From Candidatus Woesearchaeota archaeon (GTDB lineage: Archaea; Nanobdellota; Nanobdellia; Woesearchaeales; GW2011-AR9), in NCBI GenBank assembly GCA_016179955.1, contig JACPCD010000008.1, positions 1 to 43,499 on the forward strand: a stretch of 43,499 nucleotides of DNA, written 5' to 3'. The notes beneath the pieces were generated by a model that was given only the letters and a program-made list of their open reading frames with translations, had not been told where the DNA came from and did no database searches. Position numbers and translations under genes: made by a program. Positions 5,596 to 32,612 of the stretch are shown here, one piece after another; position 1 is the stretch's first letter, and the number at the start of each line of letters is the position of its first letter.

Positions 5596-5698
5596 ATAAG
5601 TGGCTTTGCCCCTTATCAACCCCAGCCCTGCGGGGAGAGAAAACACTAACGGGTTCCAGTGGTCTTCCCCCTTATCAACCCCAGCCCTGCGGGGAGAA
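5596..5698. repeat. Tandem intergenic repeat, about 59-bp period, two copies
   Basis: CCCCTTATCAACCCCAGCCCTGCGGGGAGA is identical in both copies (starts 5609 and 5668), each preceded by AGTGG(T)CTT; the first copy contains the hairpin ATAAG-T-GGC-TTT-GCC-C-CTTAT. Confidence 0.85.
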
Positions 5699-6576: not shown

Positions 6577-6733
6577 GGGCCTGTGGTCTAGTGGTTACTG
6601 TAAAGGCCGCAAATGACATCTCGTTGACGAACCAAAAATTCAAATTCGAGAGGATCCCCGGTTCGAATATAAGTGGCGTTGCCCCTTATCAACCCCATAT
6701 CCTGCAGGGAACATGAAAGTCCGGGCAGGCCCA
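6577..6733 (+). tRNA. tRNA-Val(GAC) with three predicted introns (6597-6612, 6630-6645, 6668-6719)
   Basis: Acceptor GGGCCTG/CAGGCCC, disc. A; anticodon stem TCTCG/CGAGA; anticodon GAC at 6626-6628; T-stem CCCGG/CCGGG. Removing 16+16+52 nt gives 73 nt. BHB central helices: GTGG/CCGC, TTGA/TCAA, TTCG/TGAA. Confidence 0.85.
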
Positions 6734-7546
6734 TTATTTTTTCACATTAATCGTTTCATCGGGAGAATCGCTTTTCAACTTAAATTTTGCGCCAATGTGC
6801 CCTTTGAATGGATAATTGCCAAAATGCGTCAAGGGCATATTTATATCTGAATATATTTTCCCCCCAGCAGCCCGCCATCGACGACAAAAAGTATAATCTT
6901 CTGACAAGTAGCGTCCGCTTTCCGGGTCTTTCATGCAGTCAAAGAAAAGGTAAGTATTATTAGATTCATATTTTTTGGAGTTTAGCCAGTGATCGGAAGT
7001 ATAGGCTAGTTCCGGATATGCTTCTTTCATTTTTGTAAAGACTTCTCTTTTTAAAAGCATAAATCCGGTTGCTCCATCAAGTGTTTCAACAAACCCATCA
7101 TTGACGGTGATGTGCGAATGGTCTACAAAATTGATATTGTACATCAATGATTCTGCCTGCAGCCGGGAAGAGGTCATCCCCTCCTGCCGAGACAAGCGCA
7201 GAACTTCTTCCCAATTAATGTCTTTCTTAGGATAGATTCCGCAACAAATATTTTCATCTTTCTCCAGCAGCCGGAATACATTCCTGGCCTTGAAGCCGAT
7301 GTCCGCATCGATAAAGAGCATATGGGTGAACTGTTCGGGACTATCCAAAAAAAAGCTGACTAAAATATTACGTGCCCTGGTAATCAACGACTCATTCCCC
7401 AAGGCCATAACTTCGAGGAATATCCCTTGAGCAAGGCACTCTTTCTGGAGCTGTAATATCCCCTGAAGATACTCCTTGCACAACATTCCGCCATAACAAG
7501 GGGTGGCTACAAAAAGCTTGATGGGTGAAACCATAAAACTATTCAA
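6734..7546 (-). CDS. GT-A fold glycosyltransferase-like protein
   Basis: VATPCYGG...ITRARNILVSFFL...HMLFIDADIGF...DGATGFMLLKREVF...SEDYTFCRRWRAAGGKIYSD. Confidence 0.65.
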   Translation of the reverse strand: MNSFMVSPIKLFVATPCYGGMLCKEYLQGILQLQKECLAQGIFLEVMALGNESLITRARNILVSFFLDSPEQFTHMLFIDADIGFKARNVFRLLEKDENICCGIYPKKDINWEEVLRLSRQEGMTSSRLQAESLMYNINFVDHSHITVNDGFVETLDGATGFMLLKREVFTKMKEAYPELAYTSDHWLNSKKYESNNTYLFFDCMKDPESGRYLSEDYTFCRRWRAAGGKIYSDINMPLTHFGNYPFKGHIGAKFKLKSDSPDETINVKK

Positions 7547-15446: not shown

Positions 15447-15887
15447 CTAGGAGAAAGCAAATAAAGTCTTCTGGGCAGTTGGAGCATACTTCTGCTGGTC
15501 GAGGTAGCGGTCGTAAAAGTTCATATCTCCACTCCTCCCATCGGTGGCGGGGTTCCAGAACCCTCCGCCTCTGAAAAGCCAGCTTTTCAGCCACCAAAAT
15601 TCTTTCAGAATTTTTGGTGCAGTAAAGCCCTTAAGTTTCTTTGCAATCTCAGGCTTGCTGTAAATACCCATACACAGATTAATATGTACATGGTTACTAT
15701 CAAATGTTTTCTTTCTCCACATTATCTCGTAATGTGTCAGTGCTTCGGTCAGCACTGCATCCGTGTACTCACGGATGGAATGCTTGTCAAATACATTATG
15801 GCAGTACTTGGTTTTAAGTGTGACCATTATCCACACTTCGCCTACTGCAGAGCTATATCTAGTTGGATTTGTTTTCATAAGAATCAC
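15447..15887 (-). CDS. tnpA: IS200-like Y1 transposase TnpA
   Basis: KTKYCHNVF...HYEIMWRKKTFDSNHVHINLCMGI (HUH) ... DRYLDQQKY. Confidence 0.85.
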   Translation of the reverse strand: MILMKTNPTRYSSAVGEVWIMVTLKTKYCHNVFDKHSIREYTDAVLTEALTHYEIMWRKKTFDSNHVHINLCMGIYSKPEIAKKLKGFTAPKILKEFWWLKSWLFRGGGFWNPATDGRSGDMNFYDRYLDQQKYAPTAQKTLFAFS

Positions 15888-16310: not shown

Positions 16311-16395
16311 AGGCAGAGAGCAGTCACGTAAAAAAGAATTAATTTCTTTTCCGGTATGAACATTTATAAAATATAGCCAATTTTACTTTTCGGGT

Positions 16396-16518
16396 GGGCC
16401 TGTGGTCTAGCGGCTATGACAACTCCCTTACAAGCAGACGCATCGCCGGGTTGTACCGGCAGCGCGAGCACACTGCGAAGTCCGGAGTAAATCCCCGGTT
16501 CGAATCCGGGCAGGCCCA
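16396..16518 (+). tRNA. tRNA-Val(UAC) with a 50-nt intron at 37/38 (16433-16482)
   Basis: GGGCCTG/CAGGCCC; ACTCC/GGAGT; anticodon TAC 16429-16431; BHB CTTA-CA^A-GCAG ... CTGC-GAAG-TC^C; mature 73 nt. Confidence 0.93.
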
Positions 16519-19553: not shown

Positions 19554-21617
19554 ATGAAATCAACCAAAAGTATGAAATCAACTGAAAACATCAAAGTTCC
19601 AGAAACCATCGTAGACCAAGTCATCGGCCAGGATCATGCCGTCCGCATCATCAAAAAAGCAGCGTTACAGCGCCGGCACGTCCTGCTCATAGGAGAGCCC
19701 GGCACCGGAAAATCCATGCTGGGCATAGCTTTAGCGCAACTTCTTCCCAAATCCCAGCTGAAAGATATTGTGGCCCTGCCCAATCCCAATGACGAGAATA
19801 ATCCTTTAATTAAAGAATTGCCCGCAGGAGCGGGACGGGAAGAAGTCCGAAAATACACCATTGACACCCAGCAGGTGTTTAAGAACAATAACCTGCTGCT
19901 GTTCCTGGTCGCGATCTTTACTTTGGTAGCGCCCTGGTGGATCCGCTCAAAATATCATTCGGACTTGATGTTCACCGCCTTTTTCCTTGGCGGCATGCTG
20001 TTCTTGGCAGCGTTTGCCATCATGCTCAGCGTGGGGCCCCGCGTCTTTCGGGCCGGGAGCAATTTCATCCCCAAAGTGATCGTGGACAATTACGCGCAGA
20101 AGCAGGCACCGTTTTACGACGCTACTGGGGCGCATGCAGGGGCGCTGCTCGGCGACGTGCTGCATGATCCTTTTCAAACTTTTTTGAGTGGGCAGGATTT
20201 ACAAGTTATCCGGAAAAATAAAATTGAAAGTAAAAAAATTAATGAAGAAATAGATTCATTAATGAGCAGACATAAAGACAGGATTATCCACAAAAAAGAG
20301 AAGAGCTATGAAGCAATTTTTCTTCCCTCGAACGAACTGTATGTGTTAGGAGAAGCTCATGGTTCTGTTTCTCCAGTTGAAGTTTTATCATCCAACAGAT
20401 ATGATCATGATGGTGAAATGATAAAACTAACCACTTCCGAAAAGAAAGAACTTACCATTACTCCTGAACATCGAATAGCAATGTGGAAAAATGGAAAACT
20501 TGCTTATGTCGAAGCGAAGGATATCCAAGAAGGTGATGAAGTAGTTTCCCAGCAGGATGATGTTATTATCGATGTGCAGGACATAATTAATACGTATGAC
20601 CAGCATCAGCAAAAACAATGTGCGCTGTACTACCAGTTTCAGGACCTACAGAAACAACATCCCACTTGGGGATATAAAAGAATTGCCAAGGCTATGGATC
20701 AGCCTATCGGTAAAACCCGCTGGTGGCATGAACGTAAGCATATTCCTGTTCCAATTCAGACAGCTACTTTGCTGAACAAAAAAGGATTATTGCCATTGAA
20801 AGTAGACAATCCGCATCTGCCTCTTATTGCCAAAGTTCTCGGAGCAAGTTTTGGAGATGGCGGGATTTTCGCAAATCTTAATGGTATATTCCTTTCCAGT
20901 TCTGAGTTGGAAGCCACCGAAGAATTTGGAGAAGATCTCGCAAGAATATTTGGGGATGAAGTTGACAAAAATAAAAGGACCATTGAAGGTGGAATAGAGG
21001 GACATTCTTGGTGTTATCAAAATACCAATAGAAATGTTATTCGATTTTTTAAAGCCTTAGGCGCTCCAATTGGAAAGAAATCCGAAAAGGAATTGACAGT
21101 CCCTGGATGGATTAAACTTAAAAAATATTTTGAAGACGAGTTTTATGGCTCTTACTTAGGGGGAGAATTAGGGACTCCCATCATTCATAAGCAGGGTAAT
21201 TATCTCACCTGCCTTGAAGTAGGCATTACAAGCTGGCCGCACTTTAAAGAGAACAGAGTATATTTCTTACGGGAATTGGCGGACTATCTCAAAAGAAACC
21301 GTGTTGCCACTACTTCTATCTACGAAGGAAAATCCCCCACCGAAGGGTCGCTGGTTTTCAGGCTACTCATAGAAAAGAAAATAGATAATGTCCTTTTATT
21401 CCTCATGAACGTAAAAATTAATTATTGTAAATATAAAGTTGAGAGGATTTATAATGCTTTGGGACAATGGGCCGTGCTCAAGAAAAATAAATATTACGAG
21501 TTGCTGGAGCGCGGCTACGGCGCAGAGAGGGCGATGAAAGTATTGAATTTAACTCCTGAATCGCTGTACTTGCTGCTGAACCATTTTGGCCCAGAAAAAG
21601 GGGCGGCCTCATCATGA
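19554..21617 (+). CDS. lonB: LonB protease N-extein (aa 1-208) plus N-terminal split-intein part with a homing-endonuclease-like region (aa 209-687)
   Basis: GEPGTGKS Walker A, two TM segments, [17 protein letters not shown]^T; intein block-B-like [27 protein letters not shown] endonuclease-like motif; stop TGA overlaps the next ATG. Confidence 0.9.
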
Positions 21618-23038
21618 AATTAACCAAACAGACTGTCACAAAAGTGGAGCGATTTTCCTACACTGGTAAATTGTATAATGTTACCACAAGTTCTGGCAAT
21701 GTCATTGTAAATGGGATTCTTTGTAAAAACTCTGGAGGATTAGGAACGCCCGCTAACCAACGAGTAGTCGCGGGCATGATTCATAAAGCCAATGGTGGGG
21801 TACTGTTTATTGACGAGATAGCAACGTTACATCCCCGCACGCAGCAAGAAATGTTATCGGCATTGCAGGAAAAGAAATTTCCCATCACCGGCCAATCCGA
21901 ACGATCTGCCGGCGCGATGGTGAGAACCGAACCAGTGCCATCTGACTTTGTCCTGATTGCTGCCGGCAATGTGGAAACCATAAAGAATATGCACCCGGCC
22001 TTGCGCTCCCGCATTCGGGGCTATGGATACGAAGTCTACATGAATGAAACCATGTCCGACACCACAGAGAACCGCTTTAAGATTGCGCGCTTCATCGCCC
22101 AGGAAATCAAAAAGGAACAGGGAAAGATTCCGCATTTCAGTGTGGAAGCGACCAAGGTCATTATTGAAGAAGCCCGACGCCGGGCGAACCGGAAAGGACA
22201 TCTTACCCTGCATCTGCGGGGATTAGGCGGATTAGTGCGGGCAGCAGGTGATTTAGCCGGGGAAGAAAAACAAGCAGTTGTGCTTGCCCGGCACGTGAAA
22301 GAAGCTAAGTTATTGGCCCGCCCCCTGGAACAGCAGATTGCCGATGAATTTATTGGCAGGAAGAAGGAGTATGAAGTCATCATCACCACCGGCAAAAGAA
22401 TTGGCCGGGTGAATGGGTTAGCAGTTATCGGCAGCGGCTCGGCATATTCGGGCATCTTGCTGCCCATTGAATCTGAAGTTACCCCGGGAGGCAAGAAGTC
22501 AGAGATCATTGCCACCGGAAAATTAGGCGACATTGCCAAAGAAGCAATAAAAAATGTGTCAGCCATCATCATGAAATATTTTGGCGAGGATATTAAAGAA
22601 ACCAGAGATATTTTTGTGCAATTCCTGCAGACGTATGAAGGGGTGGAAGGAGATTCTGCCTCGATTGCCGTCGCCACCTCTATTATTTCAGCGCTGAAAG
22701 AGATTCCGGTCAAACAAGACGTGGCCATGACCGGCTCATTGTCCGTCCGTGGTGAAGTGCTGCCCGTGGGCGGCGTTTCGTCCAAGGTGGAAGCGGCCAT
22801 TGATGCCGGCATCAAGACCGTTATCGTACCCAAAGCGAACCTGCAGGACATCGTCGTGGATGCGGAGAAACTGAAACAAGTCAAGATCATTCCGGTGCAG
22901 ACCATTGGCGAAGTGCTGGAAGAAGCGTTAGATTGGAACGGCAAGCACCGGATTAAAGAAATGATCCGCAAAAAGAATGGCTATGCGCATCATACCCTGA
23001 AAGAGAAACCTTTAAAAAGCAATCGCCTCTCAACGTAA
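21614..23038 (+). CDS. lonB: C-terminal intein part (39 aa) plus LonB C-extein (435 aa)
   Basis: [39 protein letters not shown]^[30 protein letters not shown] (Walker B); Lon protease domain [19 protein letters not shown]. Confidence 0.9.
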
Positions 23039-32397: not shown

Positions 32398-32612
32398 TGC
32401 CCTGGCCGGGATTGTCATACCGTTACACTATTTTGCAGGTCGTGGGGTCGAATGAAATGAGCGCCCCACTTGAATACGACTTGCCTAGTGTAACTGGCGT
32501 TTGAACCCGGGTCCCAGCATTTCTCTCAACTCGTAAAAGTTGCCGAAAGTGCTGGATGATAGTTTGTCCCTCTGCGGCGTGTACTGCAGAGACCGGACTA
32601 CACCACCAGGGC
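32398..32612 (-). tRNA. tRNA-Glu(UUC) with three predicted introns (+ strand coordinates 32564-32592, 32521-32543, 32412-32499)
   Basis: Acceptor GCCCTGG/CCAGGGC, disc. A; anticodon stem CAGCA/TGCTG; anticodon TTC; T-stem CCGGG/CCCGG. Removing 29+23+88 nt gives 75 nt. BHBs: GTCC-GG^T...GGAC-AA^A; CTTT-CG^G...AGAG-AA^A; relaxed T-loop motif TTCA-AA^C...TGAC-AA^T. Confidence 0.85.

Follow-up and report, generated by a model that had tools for sequence, protein, structure and literature searches.

The segment 6577–6733 of the window (the whole analyzed stretch of DNA, 43,499 nt) is very probably a working tRNA-Val(GAC) gene of a Woesearchaeales archaeon, with a transcript spliced at three relaxed BHB-like sites and a third intron that is a copy of a dispersed repeat. 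Excision of the three inserts (Table 1) leaves a 73-nt tRNA-Val(GAC) with a perfect cloverleaf: the acceptor, anticodon, and T stems are perfect, the D arm is regular, the anticodon is GAC, and the folding energy is −30.0 kcal/mol. Such restoration of a complete tRNA upon removal is a feature of archaeal BHB-type tRNA introns. The spliced sequence is 78–88% identical to the uninterrupted or less interrupted tRNA-Val sequences of the relatives. The original prediction was exact in its coordinates and insert lengths (16, 16, and 52 nt) as well as in the 73-nt cloverleaf, and the gene at 16396 used there for comparison is a real tRNA-Val(UAC) with an intron of its own. The TATA box found upstream of tRNA-Val(GAC) recurs at 16363–16370, at an equal distance before tRNA-Val(UAC).

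Table 1. Features of the window related to tRNA-Val(GAC), other interrupted tRNA genes, and repeat family B.
Feature	Positions	Strand	Remarks
Family B intergenic copy	5596–5638	+	Core 5596–5622; 1 kb upstream of tRNA-Val(GAC)
Family B second, tandem copy	5658–5697	+	93% to the first copy over 40 nt
Archaeal TATA box TTTATAAA	6544–6551	+	33–26 nt upstream of tRNA-Val(GAC); read directly
tRNA-Val(GAC) exon 1	6577–6596	+	nt 1–20
tRNA-Val(GAC) intron 1	6597–6612	+	16 nt; D-loop site 20/21; BHB helix GTGG/CCGC
tRNA-Val(GAC) exon 2	6613–6629	+	nt 21–37, with anticodon GAC
tRNA-Val(GAC) intron 2	6630–6645	+	16 nt; canonical site 37/38; helix TTGA/TCAA
tRNA-Val(GAC) exon 3	6646–6667	+	nt 38–59
tRNA-Val(GAC) intron 3	6668–6719	+	52 nt; T-loop site 59/60; helix TTCG/TGAA; repeat family B, core 6669–6695
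tRNA-Val(GAC) exon 4	6720–6733	+	nt 60–73
T-run, likely terminator	6737–6742	+	Directly 3' of tRNA-Val(GAC); read directly
tRNA-Val(UAC)	16396–16518	+	One 50-nt intron in the anticodon loop
tRNA-Glu(UUC)	32398–32612	-	Second triple-intron tRNA of the window; introns of 29 nt (D-loop), 23 nt (37/38), and 88 nt (T-loop, repeat family A)

At all three junctions of tRNA-Val(GAC), 3-nt bulges border a 4-bp central helix formed by exon and intron. The junction strands, correctly given in the original prediction, are GTGG TT^A/CCGC AA^A, TTGA CG^A/TCAA AT^T, and TTCG AA^T/TGAA AG^T for introns 1, 2, and 3, respectively, with four of four positions paired in each. Shuffled introns reach such pairing in only 5.7, 3.1, and 4.4% of cases (jointly ~8e-5), so the three junctions together are unlikely to have arisen by chance. 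The inner helix, which adjoins the 5' bulge within the intron, has 2, 1, and 0 bp, and the outer helix has 2 (plus a bulged nucleotide and the D stem), 5, and 5 bp. Because the inner helix is weak or absent, these motifs are relaxed rather than strict. Folding of the unspliced sequence by RNAfold favors a competing hairpin across intron 1, which counts against the explanation preferred here. The two 16-nt introns, previously described as near the minimum size, are indeed short, but a relative (L052) has a 14-nt intron at site 37/38. In the proposed scheme, a single pre-tRNA with introns at sites 20/21, 37/38, and 59/60 would be transcribed, the last exon bases would pair with the last intron bases at each junction in a relaxed, BHB-like manner, and a splicing endonuclease would cut both bulges and RtcB would join the exons, the process being repeated three times. 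Introns 1 and 2 occupy sites recurrently used in the family, and intron 3 is a copy of a dispersed palindromic repeat that would enter many tRNA genes at the same T-loop position (59/60).

The mature tRNA-Val(GAC) was searched for in 40 genomes, including this one, and the loci found were then read (herein, G labels refer to genomes, G000 being this genome, and L labels refer to loci). In the relatives, tRNA-Val(GAC) genes have from zero to three introns, nearly always at 20/21, 37/38, or 59/60. Triple introns at 20/37/59 were found in two other genera (L154 and L176) and at 20/37/53 in one genus (L152); L150 is probably triple as well. Two introns are present in L039, L052, L157, and L164, one in L030, L041, L047, and L054, and none in L031, L032, and L034. 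The intron at site 20/21 is common to L041, L047, L055, L152, L154, and L176, and the one at site 37/38 to L039, L052, L054, L154, L157, L164, and L176. The interrupted tRNA-Val(GAC) is therefore a family trait and not a lone oddity.

The interiors of these introns diverge widely among the relatives, and their terminal bases track the exon. At site 20/21, exon GTGG goes with intron CCAC, CCAT, CTAT, or CCGC, and exon GCGG with intron CTGC; at site 37/38, the matching exon/intron strands are TTGA/TCAA, CTTA/TGAG, and TTTA/TAAA. The relatives form 44 of 44 (20/21), 46 of 48 (37/38), and 64 of 68 (59/60) pairs, with p-values of 0.018, 0.007, and 0.16, respectively, when the strands are re-dealt; the pair counts are biased upward and the p-values look better than they should, since junctions of the relatives were picked among shifts for maximal pairing, which does not apply to the window's own tRNA-Val(GAC) junctions. 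At 59/60, the exon strand is nearly invariant, which keeps the value from reaching significance and makes this site uninformative; covariation of exon and intron strands was found at the other two sites. In the relatives, the two strands change together, and the direction is clear despite the flattering values.

The best named matches of this genome's splicing endonuclease are all Woesearchaeota, Nanoarchaeota, or archaeon MAGs, which places the genome in or near Woesearchaeales. The original prediction held that a lineage outside Thermoproteales would have accumulated triple-intron tRNAs independently. A non-canonical triple-intron tRNA does occur there, but it is family-wide and its intron 3 is a dispersed-repeat copy.

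It is highly improbable that the tRNA-Val(GAC) locus is a decayed pseudogene, broken by three insertions and disused. Standard tRNA finders do overlook the gene, which was detected neither by ARAGORN nor by Rfam RF00005, and one of its inserts is a dispersed-repeat copy. On the other hand, every exon base and stem is intact, the promoter is present, and identical sites and pairing are retained in other genera. When the mature tRNA-Val(GAC) was searched against the assembly (954 kb in 42 contigs, 81% complete), no second GAC gene was found, the intact copy that had been named beforehand as the sign of decay. On these grounds the pseudogene reading was rejected, and the segment represents, with high likelihood, a real and functioning triple-intron tRNA, with splicing predicted from its sequence.

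Interrupted T-loops or anticodon loops were found by an intron-aware scan of the window and loci in many other tRNAs of this genome, including those for Arg, Leu, Gly, Asn, Met, Phe, Ala, and Thr. The scan yields false fits beyond approximately four introns, and fits with five or more were ignored; its score for tRNA-Val(GAC) is circular, as the model is the gene itself. Two of the three introns of tRNA-Glu(UUC) have strict BHB motifs, as judged from the sequence. Simple tRNA finders undercount tRNAs in such DPANN genomes, and tRNAs may be misread as missing.

Two families of repeats were found in the T-loops. Family A forms the T-loop intron of tRNA-Glu(UUC) and of an Arg tRNA in this genome. 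It was matched 13 times in G002, 8 times in G009, and 5 times in G012, often in the T-loops of different tRNAs, with some matches located beside displaced tRNA 3' ends or in intergenic regions; in G002, G012, and G051, it is present in many tRNAs. A longer family A composite occurs in G009 (L305–L310), with several copies outside tRNA genes, mostly after similar upstream sequence ending in GTCACGC.

Family B includes intron 3 of tRNA-Val(GAC), which matches the T-loop introns of tRNA-Gly(GCC) and tRNA-Asn(GUU) over 27–28 nt at 93%. Similar introns are thus found in different tRNA species, as in a transposed tRNA intron family; this membership applies to intron 3, the 16-nt introns 1 and 2 being too short for such a test. 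Family B is a dispersed palindromic repeat with the core pattern ATAAG.GGC...GCC.CTTATCAACCC, for which 15 copies were found in this genome (reversed pattern, 0). Eight of these interrupt the T-loops of different tRNAs (Val, Gly, Asn, Ala, Arg, and others) as introns, all in the sense direction and with the T stem intact around them. Three copies are reversed and follow tRNA-Pro and tRNA-Leu; each is joined to a duplicate of the 3' end of that tRNA. One of the two tandem intergenic copies in the window was counted by the core pattern, and the remaining three are a degenerate duplicate, another copy that is not in a T-loop, and a further, uninspected copy. Behind tRNA-Leu (L336, 1–246), there are three tandem 82-bp units, each a displaced 3' end with a reversed family B repeat; tandem units of ~66 bp with the same two parts lie directly behind a tRNA-Pro-like gene in G002 (L332). 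Elsewhere, G002 has nine copies of family B, four other genomes have a few, and none were found in 54 of the 60 genomes searched. An insertion of family B would be harmless, as base pairing of its 3' end (NGAA AR^T) with the universal T-loop sequence TTCR would allow the repeat to be spliced out.

Introns of different tRNAs share sequence, and the repeat has presumably moved. One possible account, regarded as less likely than not, is that the T-loop introns spread, rather than as a mobile element, via recombination or gene conversion among tRNA genes with near-identical T-arms, the outside copies being pieces of broken tRNAs. It is favored by the situation in G002, where the T-loop introns of Val(GAC) and Val(UAC), both 96 nt long, are 99% identical, by the displaced tRNA 3' ends that attend many outside copies, and by the resemblance of the tandem 82-bp units at tRNA-Leu to a local duplication. 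However, copies are also located in non-tRNA places, e.g., at 5596–5697, and the repeat at displaced 3' ends is opposite in orientation to the T-loop introns, which simple conversion would not yield. Somewhat short of an even chance can be given to the account in which small elements of the tRNA-3'-end type have integrated and form the repeats: a recombinase would join them at the T-loop, the element would bring a new 3' end and displace the old one, and the introns would be a variant without replacement. Displaced 3' ends beginning at approximately nt 60, i.e., about the 59/60 site, at tRNA-Pro (L015), tRNA-Leu (L336), and in G002 (L332) agree with this account. Against it, no recombinase could be tied to the repeats, and in G013, G046, and G051, the variable arm is the apparent starting point of some displaced pieces.

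The genomes with many repeats are not distinguished by genes for Y1 transposase or phage-type integrase. G002, G012, and G051, all rich in repeats, have no Y1_Tnp genes; the Y1 transposase was rejected as the mover since its presence does not track the repeat number, as it would for a miniature element of the IS200/IS605 type. Phage_integrase (Xer-like) genes, considered as another candidate, occur in nearly all genomes and are therefore uninformative. An ORF at 15447–15887 (- strand) of the window, near tRNA-Val(UAC), matches the Y1 transposase family (PF01797, E 6e-9).

One gene of the PF01974 family was found in each of the 30 genomes searched, including this one (the two PF01974 pieces in G018 are adjacent and apparently represent a single gene that is split). 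In this genome, the endonuclease consists of one short unit, with a 235-aa open frame and ~170 aa conserved. Catalytic Tyr and His are present in all 91 aligned sequences, and the third site is Lys or Arg in all 91. Among solved structures, EndA proteins from several archaea match it best, those of Nanoarchaeum (alpha subunit) and M. jannaschii among them. A single catalytic subunit of about 180 aa with the Tyr-His-Lys triad and no second gene corresponds to the alpha4 type. Alignment to 2cv8 and 4fz2 shows the protein to be shorter where Sulfolobus has the CSL and ARMAN-2 has the ASL: neither a CSL of 15–18 aa nor an 11-aa ASL with a Tyr-Lys or Lys-Pro/Val-Arg/Lys motif was found, the motif residues being absent in this alignment. 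The loop there has 8–10 residues and contains K or R in 86 of the 91 sequences; this residue may possibly be a stand-in for the missing CSL/ASL motif.

According to published work, only (alpha beta)2 and epsilon2 enzymes efficiently remove relaxed motifs (PMC6379350), a rule that speaks against splicing of tRNA-Val(GAC) by the one alpha4-like enzyme visible here. A check for an endonuclease type able to cleave relaxed BHBs had been advised in the original prediction; by sequence, its outcome is negative, as there is one alpha4-like gene with neither CSL nor ASL. Given the published rule, the lineage is either an exception or has an unseen partner. The second possibility, i.e., that the enzyme is not a homotetramer and that an undetected partner subunit gives broad specificity as in Nanoarchaeum, seems unlikely. 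The catalytic part does match the Nanoarchaeum alpha subunit (E 4e-37) as well as the M. jannaschii enzyme (8e-35), but each of the 30 genomes has one gene, no convincing second PF01974 gene was found at E ≤ 10 in 21 genomes, and the same query does detect the Nanoarchaeum beta subunit (1e-13). On this E ≤ 10 search, a second subunit was rejected. Abundant relaxed non-canonical introns next to an enzyme that appears only alpha4-like make this lineage a test of the accepted coupling of intron diversity to endonuclease type. A broader proposal, plausible but less likely than not, is that the T-loop introns of this archaeal family are gene-less mobile elements of 50–90 bp. They would insert at nt 59/60, would survive through the ability of their 3' end to form a splice site with any T-loop, and would be removed by a loop-less homotetrameric endonuclease against the relaxed-motif rule.

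Multi-intron tRNA genes are known from Thermoproteales, including tRNA-Pro(UGG) of Pyrobaculum islandicum with three introns (PMC4090602, PMC4033280). The two systems have in common up to three BHB-type introns per tRNA and similar introns in different tRNAs, and sites 20/21, 37/38, and 59/60 are already on the published intron-site list. In contrast to Thermoproteales, the genome analyzed here belongs to another phylum (Woesearchaeales, DPANN), has one alpha4-like endonuclease without CSL, and carries repeat copies also outside tRNA genes. Near-alike introns in different tRNA species have been published, with the mechanism called unknown; here, copies are additionally visible at displaced tRNA 3' ends and in intergenic DNA. 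A disruption model for Caldiarchaeum tRNA-Thr(GGU) explains intron gain by integration of a mobile element (PMC3293823). Intron gain is likewise accompanied there by a displaced tRNA fragment, but it concerns a single locus, with an insert of 1.8 kb that encodes a recombinase, whereas here many loci have inserts of ~50–90 bp without genes. Genomes with the ARMAN-2 epsilon2 or (alpha beta)2 enzymes with CSL (PMC12397907, PMC6379350) are similarly rich in non-canonical relaxed introns, but the woesearchaeal enzyme is a single short subunit without both loops. Thus, the kind of gene is known from Thermoproteales, and what is new is the lineage, the enzyme setting, and the tie of a T-loop intron to displaced tRNA ends and a dispersed repeat. 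The openly accessible literature searched contained no paper on tRNA introns of Woesearchaeota, and any claim of priority is limited to that extent. The genome bears on the way in which archaea gain tRNA introns: since one repeat is found here in introns, between genes, and at displaced tRNA 3' ends, its insertion can be traced by comparing close strains.

A gene for the RtcB ligase is present in this genome. The gene itself (G000:C23; L181, 445–500) holds a 30-nt BHB-like insert with in-frame stops, located within codons of the conserved MPDGH/WGYG region, so its expression would need splicing or read-through, a further point against the proposed splicing scheme. An insert at the same site, with a different sequence and the same BHB shape, was found in G011 and G013 (loci L182, L362, and L363 belong to the rtcB comparison); in G000 and G013, the strands are GGTC/GACC with bulges ATT and AGT. 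Another 30-nt insert lies ~9 nt further on in G071, and rtcB is uninterrupted in most other relatives. If the insert is spliced, the RtcB ligase would be needed for making its own mRNA. In G023 and G025, both more than 90% complete, no RtcB match was found at all, though the endonuclease is present. A further interrupted gene, for a Lon-like protease with an apparent intein, occupies 19554–23038 (+ strand) of the window; its frame changes between the overlapping ORFs 19554–21617 and 21614–23038, by a frameshift or an assembly error.
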